From positions 1 to 35,783 of the IMG/VR virus record IMGVR_UViG_3300044636_000127: 35,783 nucleotides of DNA. One strand, given 5' to 3'. The first letter of the stretch is position 1; each line of letters begins with the position of its first letter. Both the position numbers and the translations under genes were made by a program. The notes beneath the pieces are model-generated. The model did not search any database and was not told where the DNA came from. It worked only from the letters and a program-made list of their open reading frames with translations. Positions 10,499-32,978 of the stretch are shown here, one piece after another. This DNA is from a virus.

Positions 10499-11014
10499 TC
10501 ACAACAGAGAGATGCGCTTGCGTTGCACTGGCTGAGCGAGCAACGAGTTGAAATCTACACCCTGCGGGACTTGTCCGCGCTTGATGCCTGGAGGAGGTGG
10601 TGCTTGCGGGGCCGATTGCTGCATCATATTCATGCCTTGCATACCCATACGCATAGCCGTAGGCGACCCAGAAGAAAAAGCCATTTTAGCTAACGGGCCA
10701 CCAGCACCCGCATAAGTCGCAGATCCACCTGTAGACATGAGCCCAGGCAAACCAAACTCACCCGTCTGCGCCGCAAGCATTGCCGCCTGCTGTGAACCCA
10801 TCGTCATCCCAGGCAAAGAACCGTAAGCAGATGCTAGAAATGGGTTAGCAGTGCCAGCGGCAGCGGCAGCAGTTCCAGCAGAAGCGGCAGCCTGAGAAGC
10901 GGCAGCAGCAGTAGCCATCTCAGCAGCAGTAGCGGCAGCAGCGGCTTCGGCTGCACCAGCGGCAGCGGTAGAACCAATAACCTCGGCTGCAATGATCGGT
11001 TCTACGCCGCTCAC
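10499..11014 (-). CDS. Ala-rich putative virion protein
   Basis: This 171-residue protein has an N-terminal half that is strikingly poor in complexity. Residues ~8-56 consist largely of Ala with Gly, Ser, Thr and Glu and could form a long membrane-active helix. The C-terminal half is Met-, Gly- and Pro-rich (MRMGMQGMNMMQQ, APQAPPPPG) and ends in a basic tail. The start overlaps the upstream 297-residue gene by ATGA. Composition and location resemble small ejection proteins of podoviruses, but no homology is recognised and that role is inference. The Ala run is encoded by GCN-repeat DNA at about 10850-10970. Confidence 0.6.
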   Translation of the reverse strand: MSGVEPIIAAEVIGSTAAAGAAEAAAAATAAEMATAAAASQAAASAGTAAAAAGTANPFLASAYGSLPGMTMGSQQAAMLAAQTGEFGLPGLMSTGGSATYAGAGGPLAKMAFSSGSPTAMRMGMQGMNMMQQSAPQAPPPPGIKRGQVPQGVDFNSLLAQPVQRKRISLL

Positions 11015-24340: not shown

Positions 24341-24468
24341 TTTTTAGCCTTTTGTGGTTGTAAAGGAATGCCTACTTTCCGGTCGTACCTGATGGGTACA
24401 GGAGGCACTTTTAGCTTGTAGGGAGACGGTAATGCTTTGCTATTCCCGGTTCGTTTTTCCACAGCCAT
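24337..24468 (-). CDS. Candidate small gene nested in the end of a glycosyltransferase gene (43 residues)
   Basis: The frame begins MAVEKRTGNSKALPSPYKLK and goes on VPPVPIRYDRKVGIPLQPQ, ending KAKK. A strong Shine-Dalgarno (AAAGGAGG, 7 bases before the ATG) precedes it. The stop overlaps the ATG of the Cys-rich gene as ATGA, the arrangement used across this genome. The first 58 bp overlap the 3' end of the glycosyltransferase gene in another frame. Without this gene the interval 24341-24410 would be an unexplained gap. The protein is basic and proline-rich, probably without a stable fold, and its function is unknown. Confidence 0.6.
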   Translation of the reverse strand: MAVEKRTGNSKALPSPYKLKVPPVPIRYDRKVGIPLQPQKAKK

Positions 24469-25103
24469 TTCGCTGCCTCCTTTAGGTTCTTAGAGTCGTC
24501 CTTGCCCACGCTTTGACTGCCTGCGTGGTGAACGTAACTCCTTGAAACAAAATGCTTAAAGTCACATACCGTAAGTGTATGACAAAAGACGTTGTCTGAA
24601 AACCAGTTGATGGGTGGAAACCTGACCGCTTGGAAGGCTTCCTTCGTGATGTAAGCAAAGATCGGCGCAATCACGCTCGTCTCTTTGATTGTCTGTTCTT
24701 CAGCCCATTTCAACCCATTTCTAGCCCCACCATCGAAACGGATGTTCTGAGCCTCTAAGATGTAATCCGACCTCGCACCTAAAACACCGATCTTATGCCC
24801 TGCCTTTTGTAGATGCTCGGCATCCTGAAGAAGAAGTCGGTAGGAATCTGGAGTCAGGCAGATGTCGTCGTTGGCAATGATGACTGCATCGTGATGCTGG
24901 AAGGCGTCATCCATAATCCGGTTGTAGGCATCCCCAAAGTTACCCGACGAGTTGAGTAGCCAGCGATAAATTCGTTCGTCCATTGTCTCGGCCCGACTCG
25001 ACAGATATATCGGCGCTTCTTTGGCGTAAAGTTTGATTGACGACAACGTAATTTCAAGACTTGGACTCCCTACCGTGCATATCAAGATCGGACACTTTTT
25101 CAT
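24411..25103 (-). CDS. Glycosyltransferase-like protein (GT-A)
   Basis: This 230-residue protein starts MKKCPILICTVGSPSLEITLSSI, a GT-A N-terminal strand. It contains the metal-binding acidic motif VIIANDDICLTP (NDD at the DxD position) and the segment FGDAYNRIMDDA typical of family 2-like enzymes. A C-terminal part with NWFSDNVFCH and YVHHAGSQSVGKD follows, where an aspartate and conserved His could hold metal and acceptor. The start at 25103 gives the family N-terminus; the longer frame adds eight residues overlapping the upstream gene. It overlaps that glycosyltransferase by 50 bp, so the two are co-translated. Possible targets are host surface glycans or virion protein. Confidence 0.78.
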   Translation of the reverse strand: MKKCPILICTVGSPSLEITLSSIKLYAKEAPIYLSSRAETMDERIYRWLLNSSGNFGDAYNRIMDDAFQHHDAVIIANDDICLTPDSYRLLLQDAEHLQKAGHKIGVLGARSDYILEAQNIRFDGGARNGLKWAEEQTIKETSVIAPIFAYITKEAFQAVRFPPINWFSDNVFCHTLTVCDFKHFVSRSYVHHAGSQSVGKDDSKNLKEAAKWLWKNEPGIAKHYRLPTS

Positions 25104-25764
25104 ACCCCTCCATTCTGTGGCCTGCAACCACCTGAAAATATTGGTTATCCATCAGCGGTTTGTCGCAACCGTTCACTACAATCCCGTTTAGTTCCGCAAG
25201 CACAGGAAACGCGATCTGGTCGTGCAAAGACCATTCTTGAATCTCGCGCCACCAATTGTCCAGAAACTTTCCTACCGTGTCTGAGCGAAGGTAGTCACCA
25301 TTCCAACACATCACACCCGTTGCAATCTGTCCAGCCTTCTCAGGCCAGCCCATTTGTCGGTATTGCTCAACCTGTTCTCGTATGGGTTGGTTGACGTACT
25401 TCTTCATGTTCCACGATTCTTCTGCTTCCTCGTAAATACAATCTCTCCACGGATGTTGGAAGGCTGCAAGCGTATCTCCGGTCTGAGAGATCATGTACTT
25501 CACAAAGTCAGGGCTTGTGATTCTTATCGACCCGTCCACCCAAATAACGTAGTCCTCAGTCGGAAAGAACTCGTTAATGTGGGTCTTGTAGTACCGAGCC
25601 TCCAATCTTGGTTCTCTCTTAGGATGGATGACCAACTGCTTCCATCCCTGTGACTCAGGAATGGCATCCAGAAGCACATAGAAGTCCGTAGAGACGCTTT
25701 GTTTGACAGCGTAGTGTAACGGGTCATGCGATCCAAAAATCGCGCTAAAAACGGCAGCTTTCAT
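25054..25764 (-). CDS. Glycosyltransferase, TOD1/MUCI70-like (DUF616) domain
   Basis: This 236-residue protein starts MKAAVFSAIFGSHDPLHYAVKQS. Features of the DUF616/TOD1 glycosyltransferase-like domain are present: RYYKTH, then YVIWVDGSIRIT (W-x-D in place of DxD), FQHPWRDCIYEEAE, and GVMCWNGDYLRSD..FLDNWWREIQEWSLHDQIAFP, where HDQ corresponds to the catalytic region. The ATG lies only two bases after the T-tract of an intrinsic terminator and no Shine-Dalgarno precedes it. The 3' end overlaps the next glycosyltransferase by 50 bp. With the two other glycosyltransferase-like genes this gives the phage three, with no visible sugar-nucleotide synthesis genes. Confidence 0.8.
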   Translation of the reverse strand: MKAAVFSAIFGSHDPLHYAVKQSVSTDFYVLLDAIPESQGWKQLVIHPKREPRLEARYYKTHINEFFPTEDYVIWVDGSIRITSPDFVKYMISQTGDTLAAFQHPWRDCIYEEAEESWNMKKYVNQPIREQVEQYRQMGWPEKAGQIATGVMCWNGDYLRSDTVGKFLDNWWREIQEWSLHDQIAFPVLAELNGIVVNGCDKPLMDNQYFQVVAGHRMEGYEKVSDLDMHGRESKS

Positions 25765-25766
25765 GC

Positions 25767-25794
25767 AAAAAAATGCCCAACACACAGTCGGGCA
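25767..25794 (-). terminator. Intrinsic terminator before the glycosyltransferase pair
   Basis: On the minus strand TGCCC (25794-25790) pairs with GGGCA (25778-25774) around an 11-nt loop containing a further weak pairing. A run of Ts ends two bases before the ATG of the DUF616-like gene. It would separate the early/regulatory operon from the glycosyltransferase and packaging genes, which would then depend on readthrough or an unrecognised promoter. Confidence 0.75.
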
Positions 25795-28443: not shown

Positions 28444-28604
28444 GCCATATCTCCTGTCATGTCTATTTCTGTTTCTTGTAAGGTCTTGGTTGCCAACTTC
28501 AAATCTTGCAAGAGAATCCGTAGCTCTTGGCTGTGAACAATCACATAGTCGTTTTCTTCTGCCAGCTTGTGTAGCAGTTTGTATGCTCTTTCTTTCTCGT
28601 TCAT
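28440..28604 (-). CDS. Small helical protein (54 residues)
   Basis: This frame of 54 codons starts MNEKERAYKLLHKLAEENDY and continues VIVHSQELRILLQDLKLATK, ending with an acidic EIDMTGDMA. A very strong Shine-Dalgarno, AAAGGAGG, lies 4 bases before the ATG. The start overlaps the stop of the helicase-loader gene by ATGA, and the stop overlaps the winged-helix start by ATGA. The double coupling and ribosome-binding site make it a real gene. The product is helical, possibly a coiled coil; the function is unknown. Confidence 0.8.
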   Translation of the reverse strand: MNEKERAYKLLHKLAEENDYVIVHSQELRILLQDLKLATKTLQETEIDMTGDMA

Positions 28605-28939
28605 AGAACCTCCTTTTGTTGTCTTGACATCATCGCCTTAATCTTAGCGACCTGTTCTAAGCCTTTAGTCTTATCTATCGTCATTTCGAGACGCTGATAA
28701 AACGGAGGAGGAGCCTGCCTGCATAGAGCCCTGAATTGCAAAACATTGGGAGGTTTGTCACCAGGCAAGCACTCGACCGCATAAGAGATCGCATGAGGAA
28801 GGTTTGCAAAGCCAGATAACTCGTGAGCCCAGTTCTCCATAACCTCCTGCATATTCATGTCTCGATACTGGTCGAGAAAAGCCTTTCCGTAGGTCATAGA
28901 AAGTTTCTTGAAGATAGCTTCGATCACTTGCAAGTCCAT
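28601..28939 (-). CDS. Putative helicase loader, lambda P-like
   Basis: This 112-residue helical protein begins MDLQVIEAIFKKLSMTYGKAF. The central segment (ENWAHELSGFANLPHAISYAVECL) and the turn GDKPPNVLQFRALCRQAPPP follow a pattern common in P-like replication proteins that recruit the host replicative helicase. It directly follows the DUF1376 initiator gene with a 2-bp gap, reproducing the O-P order of lambda. It is shorter than lambda P (233 residues), so it may be a minimal loader or only its helicase-binding part. The assignment is from context and motif, not a strong family match. Confidence 0.55.
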   Translation of the reverse strand: MDLQVIEAIFKKLSMTYGKAFLDQYRDMNMQEVMENWAHELSGFANLPHAISYAVECLPGDKPPNVLQFRALCRQAPPPFYQRLEMTIDKTKGLEQVAKIKAMMSRQQKEVL

Positions 28940-28941
28940 GA

Positions 28942-29676
28942 TTAGCCCTCCAACAAGTCTTGACGAGGCGTAATGTCCTTCTCTCGCCTGTTTCTGCCAA
29001 AGATGATGTCCAAAGACTGCTTGTAATGGTCATCCTTCTTGAGATCGTCTGTAACCCACTCAGCCTTGAATCCCTGCCAGCCTCTAGCGCAGCAAAGCTG
29101 CAAAGCCTTCTCAAGCGATATGCCTGCGTTAGAAGCCTCTTTTCTGATCCCTTTTATGGCTGTGTCAGTGATAGGCGATTTCTTAGCCTTCCTGAGAGCC
29201 TTGAAGTCAGCCCAAACCGATTCATCAACATCATCAGGACGAAGCGAGCTTGCCGAGCGTGTGCTTATATTTGGTTGTTGGTTATTGGTTATTGGTTGTT
29301 GGTTATTGGTTGGGATCTGATCCGCATCTGATTTCAGATCTGATTTCTTATCCTTTTCTAATGTCCAACGGATCTGATTCGCACCTCTAGCAGAGTTAGC
29401 CTTGCGTTGATACTTGCTAATTTCCCCGTCAATCCTCTGATGCGTATATGAATTCAGATCTGATTCGTATGTGAAGAACGTCCGAAGCAGAAGGCTAAGA
29501 GATTCTTCGTTCCCTCTTGCTCCTATCTTGAAAGCTAAGGCTTTAATGTCGTTTGGAAGCGGCTTTTCTGACTCGTAGTAAAGCCAGATTAAGCGCAGGT
29601 AAAAGTAGGATTCTTGTGGGGTCAGCGAAACGGTGTCACGCAGAAAATCCCCGATGTGATGCGGATAGTAGTGCAT
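28942..29676 (-). CDS. Replication initiator, DUF1376 (YdaU-like)
   Basis: This 244-residue protein has the DUF1376 N-terminal domain (MHYYPHHIGDFLRDTVSLTPQESY..LRLIWLYY.., residues 1-95), a winged-helix-like DNA-binding fold. A low-complexity linker of Lys, Asp, Asn and Gln follows (residues ~106-145). The C-terminal helical segment, KALQLCCARGWQGFKAEWV, is seen at the end of many phage initiators. The start at 29676 has the family opening with GAGG 5 bases upstream; a GTG frame up to 29703 adds nine unlikely residues. Its linker DNA carries six tandem heptamers and ATCTGAT boxes, a probable origin. Initiators of this type bind the origin and recruit the loader encoded next. Confidence 0.82.
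   Translation of the reverse strand: MHYYPHHIGDFLRDTVSLTPQESYFYLRLIWLYYESEKPLPNDIKALAFKIGARGNEESLSLLLRTFFTYESDLNSYTHQRIDGEISKYQRKANSARGANQIRWTLEKDKKSDLKSDADQIPTNNQQPITNNQQPNISTRSASSLRPDDVDESVWADFKALRKAKKSPITDTAIKGIRKEASNAGISLEKALQLCCARGWQGFKAEWVTDDLKKDDHYKQSLDIIFGRNRREKDITPRQDLLEG
29271..29312 (-). repeat. Six tandem heptamers (TTGGTTR) inside the initiator gene
   Basis: The plus strand reads TTGGTTG, TTGGTTA, TTGGTTA, TTGGTTG, TTGGTTA, TTGGTTG without interruption (42 bp). The translated linker is NNQQPIT NNQQPN, so the repeat also has a 21-bp protein-level period. As tandem iterons inside an initiator gene they resemble the origin of lambda within O. They may bind the initiator; the alternative is a plain Gln/Asn linker. 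Confidence 0.9.
29315..29464. promoter_or_regulatory. Candidate replication origin boxes: five ATCTGAT sites
   Basis: ATCTGAT occurs in the same orientation at 29315, 29326, 29338, 29372 and 29458. Four of these are preceded by G, giving GATC sites. The 13-bp TTCAGATCTGATT, containing the palindrome CAGATCTG, is exact at 29333-29345 and 29453-29465. The cluster directly follows the six heptamers and is next to a pyrimidine-rich stretch (29345-29360). Origin function is inferred from repeat clustering within the initiator gene. Confidence 0.5.
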
Positions 29677-29787
29677 ACAAACCTCGTCTAGGTTTATCGT
29701 CACTGGAGGTGCATTTGGCAGGCGGGTGACGAAACCGCTCTTCGGGAGCTACCCTAGCCAATGCGGTGAAACAATCGACAGTCTAAA
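29677..29787. other. Intergenic region between nuclease and initiator genes
   Basis: This 111-bp gap has no convincing reading frame on either strand. It holds a short GC-rich inverted segment (GCTC..GAGC around CCGAA) and, near its left end, the GAGG that serves the initiator gene. It could carry a promoter or leader for the replication genes, but no clear -10/-35 pair is visible to me. Confidence 0.4.
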
Positions 29788-30786: not shown

Positions 30787-30855
30787 TTGGATCTTATGCA
30801 GCATATTGGGAATCTTTTACGGGGTACTCCTGTTCCTGTTCGTAAGGTAGAAAAC

Positions 30856-31386
30856 ATGAAATTCGCTGAACTCAACAAAATCAACGTCAACAGCAAGATC
30901 GAGAAGAAAAATAACCTCTCGTATCTATCCTGGGCATGGGCTGTAGAACAACTTTTGCTTAACGATCCCTCTGCTACCTGGGAGTACAAGCCTCACCAAA
31001 TATGGAACGAGACGGTCATGGTGTTCTGCGAGGTCAAAGCATTTGGAGTTTCTCGCACTGCCCAACTTCCCGTCATGGACCACAGAAACAAGGCCATCTC
31101 CAACCCAGATTCGTTCCAGGTCAATACCGCTATGCAACGATGCTTGGCTAAGGCTATCGCGTTGCATGGTCTCGGTTTATATATTTATGCTGGAGAAGAT
31201 CTGCCTTCCGAAGAAAAGGTCGATGAGCTTGAGACCTACAAAGCAAAACTCGAAGCGGCAGAGTCCTTGGACACGTTAAAAGCAGAGTTCTCTCCGGCCT
31301 ACAAGGCTATGAAAGACAAACCAGAAATCAAAGAACTCGTCGCTGTTTACGAAGCCAAGAAGAAAGCACTTACGGAAGTCAAATGA
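30856..31386 (+). CDS. Single-strand annealing protein, Sak family (DUF1071)
   Basis: This 176-residue protein has the DUF1071/Sak signature NNLSYLSWAWAVEQ (residues ~19-32). The strand pattern LPVMDHRNKAISNPDSFQVNTAMQRCLAKAIALHGLGLYIYAGEDLP follows at ~71-117, with a helical C-terminus. Sak-type proteins anneal complementary single strands and work with a 5'-3' exonuclease, here the YqaJ-type gene 1 kb downstream. The ATG at 30856 gives the family N-terminus and follows AAGG; a longer TTG frame from 30787 has no support. The stop overlaps the next start by ATGA. Confidence 0.87.
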   Translation: MKFAELNKINVNSKIEKKNNLSYLSWAWAVEQLLLNDPSATWEYKPHQIWNETVMVFCEVKAFGVSRTAQLPVMDHRNKAISNPDSFQVNTAMQRCLAKAIALHGLGLYIYAGEDLPSEEKVDELETYKAKLEAAESLDTLKAEFSPAYKAMKDKPEIKELVAVYEAKKKALTEVK

Positions 31387-31736
31387 ACTTAGACCGATTT
31401 GAAGAGGGTTTGATCGACGACATCCAGACTGACCGCTGCAAGAAACTCTTGTGGTCGGTCATCAACCTGGCAGTAGAAGATGCGTGCCGCGCTCCGTACA
31501 ACAAAAAGCCAAGCACTGAGTCTATCACCGCGATGCGGTTTTTAATCGGCAACGGCAAGGAAGCTGATCTCGATTCTTGGCTAATGTGGCTCGACGTAAA
31601 CGGTCCGGTGTTTAGAAGGAGACTCTTGGAAGCCATGTTCTCGGATCACCACGATAAGTTCCCAGACATGGCAAGAAGGGCTTTCAGAGCAAATTACAAC
31701 TGGTGGAGGCTCAATGCGACTGATTTTAACGACTGA
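31383..31736 (+). CDS. Conserved protein of the recombination operon (117 residues)
   Basis: MNLDRFEEGLIDDIQTDRCKKLLWSVINLAVEDACRAPYNK begins a 117-residue helical protein. It has SITAMRFLIGNGKEADLDSWLMWLDVNGPVFRRRLLEAMF. Proteins with this LIGNG-x(3)-(D/E)-x-W-x-x-W-L motif lie beside NinB and Sak genes in many phages, with no established function. It starts by ATGA overlap with the annealing protein and overlaps NinB by 23 bp, so it is co-expressed with both. Membership of the recombination module is inferred from synteny. Confidence 0.78.
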   Translation: MNLDRFEEGLIDDIQTDRCKKLLWSVINLAVEDACRAPYNKKPSTESITAMRFLIGNGKEADLDSWLMWLDVNGPVFRRRLLEAMFSDHHDKFPDMARRAFRANYNWWRLNATDFND

Positions 31737-32133
31737 GAATGACCGCAGGAGGGCTATAGAGGCTCTACAAGACGCTGAATTGGGTTACATGGTAACTATC
31801 TCCAAACCTCCTCGTACAGCGGCTCAGAATCGGTTTTATTGGGCGATCCTAACTGCGTGTTCTGAACAGCTTATGAACCAGGAATATACGCAGGACATCT
31901 GGCATGAGTGGGCGAAAACTCGATTCTTGCCAACAAGGATCGTGGACCTACCTGGCGGCCAGGTGAAGGAGATTGAGCCTTCTACCGCTTCTCTCACGGT
32001 CTCAGAGTTCTCTGATCTTGTGGAGCAGCTTTTACAGTACGCGTTGGAGAAAGGCTTGATTTGGACTGATGAGATGAAAGACGCTGAACTCGACTTGAGG
32101 AAAATCAATGTACATAAACAAAAAGCTGCTTGA
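31714..32133 (+). CDS. NinB-like recombination protein
   Basis: This 139-residue protein has the NinB (Orf) pattern: MRLILTTENDRRRAIEALQDAELGYMVTISKPPRTAAQNRFYWAILT. A helical part follows (YTQDIWHEWAKTRFLP..), then LTVSEFSDLVEQLLQYALEKGLIW, close to lambda Orf. Lambda NinB binds SSB-coated single strands and replaces RecFOR functions. Its place between the Sak and Exo genes supports this. It overlaps the next gene by 26 bp. Confidence 0.88.
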   Translation: MRLILTTENDRRRAIEALQDAELGYMVTISKPPRTAAQNRFYWAILTACSEQLMNQEYTQDIWHEWAKTRFLPTRIVDLPGGQVKEIEPSTASLTVSEFSDLVEQLLQYALEKGLIWTDEMKDAELDLRKINVHKQKAA

Positions 32134-32398
32134 GGCTTGCAGGCATATCCCATGCGGGTCTTGTTTTTGCGAAGATGGGACTGTAGTAGCTGCACACAGG
32201 AATCAAGGAAAAGGCATGGGCATCAAGGTTAGTGATGCTTTAGTAGCATCCCTCTGTTACAGATGCCACACATACTTGGACCAGGGAAAGGATATGTCTC
32301 GTGAAGAACGTCGAGACTTCTGGAACCAGGCGTACATAAACACGATGCAGGCAATGATCGAACGAGGATGGTTAAAGGTGCAAAATGCAAAGAACTGA
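32108..32398 (+). CDS. YbcO-like nuclease (DUF1364)
   Basis: This 96-residue protein has the DUF1364/YbcO pattern with a zinc site. Residues C11, C16, C19 and C21, then DGTVVAAHRNQGKGMGIKVSDALVASLCYRCHTYLDQG, supply H30 and the C50/C53/H54 group. EERRDFWNQAYINT follows. YbcO-type proteins are HNH-like nucleases of prophage ninG/ninB regions, thought to process Holliday junctions or recombination intermediates. It sits between NinB and the exonuclease, overlapping both genes (26 and 14 bp). The set of Cys and His residues looks complete. Confidence 0.85.
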   Translation: MYINKKLLEACRHIPCGSCFCEDGTVVAAHRNQGKGMGIKVSDALVASLCYRCHTYLDQGKDMSREERRDFWNQAYINTMQAMIERGWLKVQNAKN

Positions 32399-32978
32399 AG
32401 ATTGGTTTAAGGCAAGATTGGGTCATGTAACCGCTTCTAGGGCTTCTGACGCGATTGCGAAGCAAGGTACGGCTACACGTAGGAACTACGCAATACAACT
32501 CGTCACAGAGCGTTTAACGGGCTTACAGGGCGATTCCTTTACGAACGCTGCTATGCAGTGGGGCACAGAGCAAGAACCTATCGCTAGGGTCGCGTATGAG
32601 CAGCATACAGGCTCGATTGTGGAGCAGACAGGCTTTCATAAGCACAAGAGCATAGAATGGCTTGGAGCCTCTCCTGACGGGTTTGTGGGCTCAGGGCTGA
32701 TTGAGATCAAGTGTCCCAACAGTAACACTCATGTTGATTACTTATTAGCAAAGGAGGTTCCCACTAAGTACAAGTCTCAAATGCTCACTCAAATGCTTGT
32801 GACAAATAGGACATGGTGCGACTTTGTAAGTTTCGACCCAAGGCTTCCAGATCACTTGCAGTTATTCATTGTTAGATACGAACCAAAGCCAGAGGAGTTC
32901 AAGATCATCGAGCTACAACTCACGAACTTTCTAGCCGAGGTATCAGAAATGGAGAAATCGCTATGCCAAAAGAACTAA
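32385..32978 (+). CDS. YqaJ-type (lambda Exo-like) recombinase nuclease
   Basis: This 197-residue protein has the viral recombinase signature: W7-FKARLGHVTASRASDAI, then WGTEQEPIARVAYE at ~59-72. The catalytic residues D98 (GASPDGF) and E107/K109 (LIEIKC) are intact. A C-terminal segment with KYKSQMLTQMLV supplies the conserved Gln. The enzyme degrades one strand 5' to 3', and the Sak-type protein anneals the resulting tails. It overlaps the following SSB-like gene by 16 bp. Confidence 0.9.
   Translation: MQRTEDWFKARLGHVTASRASDAIAKQGTATRRNYAIQLVTERLTGLQGDSFTNAAMQWGTEQEPIARVAYEQHTGSIVEQTGFHKHKSIEWLGASPDGFVGSGLIEIKCPNSNTHVDYLLAKEVPTKYKSQMLTQMLVTNRTWCDFVSFDPRLPDHLQLFIVRYEPKPEEFKIIELQLTNFLAEVSEMEKSLCQKN

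Follow-up and report, generated by a model that had tools for sequence, protein, structure and literature searches.

A candidate replication origin built from two kinds of short DNA repeat within the DUF1376 initiator gene of a bacterial virus

Gene content and repeats of the locus

The window analysed here, a stretch of 35,783 nucleotides from a virus (IMG/VR record IMGVR_UViG_3300044636_000127), carries on its minus strand the gene 28942–29703, which encodes an initiator of 253 aa. The codons of its DUF1376 domain (29422–29676; aa 10–94) were identified by a Pfam profile match to the DUF1376/YdaU family (PF07120; 69.9 bits against a cut-off of 30.1; E 2.5e-19), and the C-part matches the PHROG family phrog_678, 'replication initiation O-like' (E 2.8e-20 over aa 87–219). 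In the AlphaFold model the domain is helical with a beta hairpin and winged-helix-like, but the fold search returned only weak winged-helix matches, the best being the DnaD N-domain (E 1.6), and a PDB sequence search with initiator and loader profiles gave nothing meaningful. The domain is continued by a long helix (aa 89–121), in which lies a putative recognition segment, SARGANQIRW (29365–29394; aa 104–113). The C-domain codons (about aa 155–222) occupy 29038–29241.

Two kinds of repeat are present in this gene. Six uninterrupted TTGGTTR heptamers lie at 29271–29312, and ATCTGAT occurs at 29315, 29326, 29338, 29372 and 29458, four of these being inside GATCTGAT (29314, 29337, 29371 and 29457). 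In addition, exact 13-bp copies of TTCAGATCTGATT are found at 29333–29345 and 29453–29465. Since the gene is on the minus strand, the coding order is DUF1376 domain, ATCAGAT boxes, six AACCAAY heptamers and C-domain. In 20,000 synonymous codon shuffles of this gene, five or more tandem AACCAAY units arose 6 times and five or more ATCAGAT never.

In the coding strand, the outer box ATCAGATC (29457–29464) is inside DUF1376-domain codons (aa 80–82), is the least conserved and has an uncertain role; CAGATCTG is kept in the related loci L012–L017 and L023–L026, but is absent in L021 and L022. The next box ATCAGATC (29371–29378) overlaps the recognition-segment codons (aa 109–111), 34 bp (about 3 turns) from the inner cluster, which is formed by ATCAGATC at 29337–29344; ATCAGAT at 29326–29332, 12 bp from its neighbour; and ATCAGATC at 29314–29321, 11 bp from its neighbour and abutting the heptamer array. 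The preliminary description had placed all of these repeats within the linker, which is not quite right, since only the three inner boxes and the heptamers (aa about 120–144) lie at the end of the long helix and in the low-confidence linker (pLDDT mostly below 50 from aa 126 on).

The next gene (28601–28939, minus strand; 112 aa) probably encodes a P-type helicase loader, as had also been suggested in the preliminary description. Its predicted structure has as its only good PDB match lambda P in the DnaB-P complex 9oa1 (prob 0.92; TM 0.47; E 0.42, so remote); 10 of 27 homologues hit the P-like loader family phrog_109; and one homologue is annotated 'replication protein P'. Elsewhere in the window are found a divergent recombination block with a Sak-type annealing protein, NinB/Orf and a YqaJ exonuclease (30787–32978); a gene with a TOD1/MUCI70 glycosyltransferase-like domain (25054–25785; E 1e-13) beside an unknown overlapping gene (24411–25127); and imperfect tandem CAG/GCN repeats (10847–10966) inside the minus-strand gene 10499–11014.

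Recurrence and geometry of the repeats among relatives

In IMG/VR, 28 loci encode relatives, most of them close, which show modular exchange. Loci L005–L011 join a different DUF1376 N-part to a C-part nearly identical to that of the window, with the break at the heptamers, while L012–L017 and L023–L026 keep the N-part and boxes but change the C-part. Heptamers stay in all those examined. On the other hand, the ATCAGAT boxes follow the N-part; with the other N-part they are replaced by CGTTCAAC boxes at 11-bp spacing, read in three frames as RST, VQQ, FNG and RST. The C-domain is exchanged together with the downstream helicase or loader gene, the neighbour in relatives with other C-domains being a DnaB-type helicase (L012, L023) or an IstB/DnaC-type ATPase (L029). 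The front end (segment, boxes and array) is, so, combined with different helicase-delivery back ends.

A scan by the N-domain alone, plus ten named phages, gave 66 genes below 70% identity that were long enough to score. A lag-7 repeat (at least 17 of 21 bases) occurs in 60 of them, against 2.7 expected when synonymous codons are shuffled within each gene, and lag 11 occurs in 16, against 0.15; the main excess is at 7/14/21/28 and 11/22/33. In a comparison with flanking segments of the same contigs (lag-11 threshold 16), lag 7 was found in 53/57 IMG/VR genes against 0/216 segments, and lag 11 in 27/57 against 1/216. Neither 7 nor 11 is a multiple of 3, so this represents selection at the DNA level. 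Nearly all relatives are metagenomic contigs with unknown hosts, but named examples include Moraxella phage Mcat21 (the same GTTCAAC boxes and AACCAAT units), Acinetobacter phage phiAC-1 (GCAATGC boxes), Vibrio phage 1.052.A (GCAATGC boxes and five ACCCAAT units) and Thalassomonas phage BA3 (AACCAAG units). Interestingly, the record of Vibrio phage 1.183.O (MG592549.1) annotates a 'CRISPR_spacer_1' (1867–1896) inside the linker of the DUF1376 gene, which looks like the origin-type repeats mistaken for a CRISPR array.

Box spacings cluster at 11 bp (79 cases) and 22 bp (19), and the distance from the last box to the array is fixed per class (A, 10; B, 8–9; C, 8–9; D, 10; E, 16–17), or the same plus 11 in most of the rest. 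The seventh base of the array unit is T where the frame allows (134/175 and 98/132), but only in 2/177 where T would create the stop TAA, what explains the G/A alternation in the TTGGTTR of the window. Codon frequencies at bases 1–5 were set aside because the array finder fixes those bases; bases 6–7 and the shuffle test are free of that bias.

Pairing of the protein segment with the box class

Five box classes were recognised (ATCAGAT, GTTCAAC, GCAATGC, C-rich and AACCCA), and the class is mirrored by a protein segment directly after the DUF1376 core: A, 'A[RK]xAN'; B, 'AGKxSA'; C, '[SN]AxxRW'; D, 'GAxKRW'; and E, 'GGRP'. In many classes the codons vary while the residues do not, and 5 of 15 class-A segments are not themselves encoded by a box. 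With boxes counted only in DNA 3′ of the segment's codons, the segment predicts the box class in 87/87 genes of the discovery set and in 29/29 held-out genes, which came from two later scans and are below 75% identical to that set. The first versions of this test gave 16/16 and 11/11; an early classification partly overlapped the segment's own codons, and agreement became complete when only the 3′ DNA was used, with one box sufficing to assign a class and one pattern order corrected (locus L309). The classes were defined after looking at the discovery set, thus only the held-out genes are an independent test, and these are mostly of classes C and E, with none of class A, to which the window belongs.

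On a tree of the core domain without the segment, box class changes 19 times and the segment changes with it. For classes A, B and E, the independent pairs on well-supported branches (3, 4 and 4) change segment and box together in nearly all random pairings and never in opposite directions, but are too few for a significant sign test, and the tree has only 89 columns with many unresolved forks. The simplest reading is that this segment reads the boxes, which are probably the binding sites of the initiator itself, although segment and boxes are neighbours and recombination could co-inherit them without contact.

Beyond the DUF1376 proteins, two initiators that share the C-domain but have another N-domain (L274, of Limnohabitans phage DC33, and L363) have three GATATCA boxes at 11 bp followed by an array of AGAGAC hexamers; L364 was borderline, and L360, L361 and L362 lack 11-bp boxes. 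The gene ydaU of the E. coli K-12 Rac prophage (locus L523, 5120–5977) has the class-B segment (AAGKASV) and GTTCAA/GTTGAA-type motifs at about 11-bp steps, but this periodicity is only suggestive (P about 0.07) and there is no AACCAAY array. The gene next to it, ydaV, encodes an IstB/DnaC-type ATPase, and Rac has an active origin, oriJ (PMC3945230).

A probable intragenic origin and its alternatives

We propose, with fairly good confidence, that the stretch 29271–29464 is the theta-type replication origin of this phage, embedded in its own initiator gene, with binding, melting, helicase loading and origin activity being inferred from the sequence. In this explanation, several copies of the DUF1376 protein bind the helically phased boxes using aa 104–113; the assembly strains the adjacent strand-asymmetric array (A, C and Y only on the coding strand), which melts or is held as an unstructured single strand; and the C-domain then brings the P-type loader and the host DnaB helicase. 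The role of the array is the least certain step; it is only moderately AT-rich (64% against 50% for the genome). Because the recognition segment, its boxes and the array sit within about 130 bp of one reading frame, the unit is exchanged as a cassette. The preliminary description, which had inferred origin function from the repeats and gene order, is supported by the repeats kept in related DUF1376 phages. Its view of a different initiator family is right for the N-domain, but the C-part is O-like. Its proposal of a methylation-sensitive GATC switch is not supported, since other box classes have no GATC, the class-A relatives L303 and L304 have ATCAGAA boxes without it, and GATC is not depleted in the genome (176 against about 140 expected). 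The GC skew was uninformative, as its minimum (30588) lies beside the change of gene direction at about 30.2 kb.

An alternative is that the boxes are autoregulatory operators controlling transcription of the replication operon, with replication starting elsewhere. The pairing of boxes and segment would also be shown by an operator, and DUF1376 is helical with a hairpin, like many regulators. However, this seems unlikely, since the boxes sit mid-gene, never at the promoter, and next to a second array; a promoter and terminator scan gave no excess over shuffles; and the partner genes are helicase loaders or helicases. That the DNA repeats merely reflect a repetitive flexible peptide (TNNQQPITNNQ) is very improbable, although the linker is predicted to be disordered: synonymous shuffles remove the signal, the lags are not multiples of 3, Asn-Asn is written AAT-AAC in 67 of 88 linker cases, and GTTCAAC boxes are read in several frames.

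It is also possible, but doubtful, that the array is a recombination joint or slippage-prone linker with no role in origin opening, and that only the boxes matter. The N- and C-domain exchanges break at the array, and the unit number varies, mostly from 4 to 7. In addition, a scan of genome contigs was swamped by AACCAAY arrays that are abundant non-coding simple repeats in cyanobacteria (many in filamentous cyanobacterium ESFC-1, also Limnofasciculus and Tychonema), so the unit alone implies no origin. On the other hand, the window has one array, in a coding region; period 7 is kept while the unit changes, as in a Vibrio phage and BA3; the distance to the boxes is fixed across the five classes as given above; arrays are absent from the 216 flanking segments; and some initiators with other N-domains have a hexamer array in the same place.

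Origins inside initiator genes are known in phages lambda (PMC5043065, PMC7466680) and SPP1 (PMC6316719). In lambda, the iterons lie in gene O next to a strand-asymmetric AT-rich tract (the array here is strand-asymmetric but only moderately AT-rich) and a P loader gene follows, but these iterons are 19-bp inverted repeats instead of direct 7–8 bp boxes at 11–12 bp spacing, and the N-domain is that of lambda O. In SPP1, oriL inside gene 38 has direct repeats plus an AT-rich unwinding element, with a helicase loader (gp39) and a helicase (gp40); the initiator, hosts and repeats are different, and no regular 7-bp array is described in the account consulted. The iteron plasmids RK2, P1, F and R6K share direct iterons phased with the helix, in their case next to an unwinding element, which in RK2 is itself repeated (PMC5043065), but here the origin would lie inside the coding sequence of the initiator, which is not a plasmid Rep, and no DnaA box is near (nearest TTWTNCACA at 24455). 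The initiator family, the regular period-7 array, and the box classes with their pairing to a protein segment appear to be new, no paper discussing a DUF1376 origin having been found in the open literature searched; priority cannot be excluded.

A broader reading, slightly more likely than not, is that DUF1376 proteins form a large family of phage replication initiators with a readable recognition code, in which a segment of about 10 residues after the domain specifies one of at least five iteron classes, and segment, iterons and a near-universal period-7 unwinding array form one portable cassette that has switched specificity many times. The same rule predicts that oriJ of Rac lies inside ydaU. 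These results give a probable function and a DNA target to a domain of unknown function found in phages of Acinetobacter, Moraxella, Vibrio, Pseudomonas, E. coli and many uncultivated hosts; offer a sequence rule to locate origins in such genomes; and make testable the old question of where initiator specificity lies. In this design the specificity determinant and its target are encoded by nearly the same DNA, which could explain how replication modules are swapped between phages.
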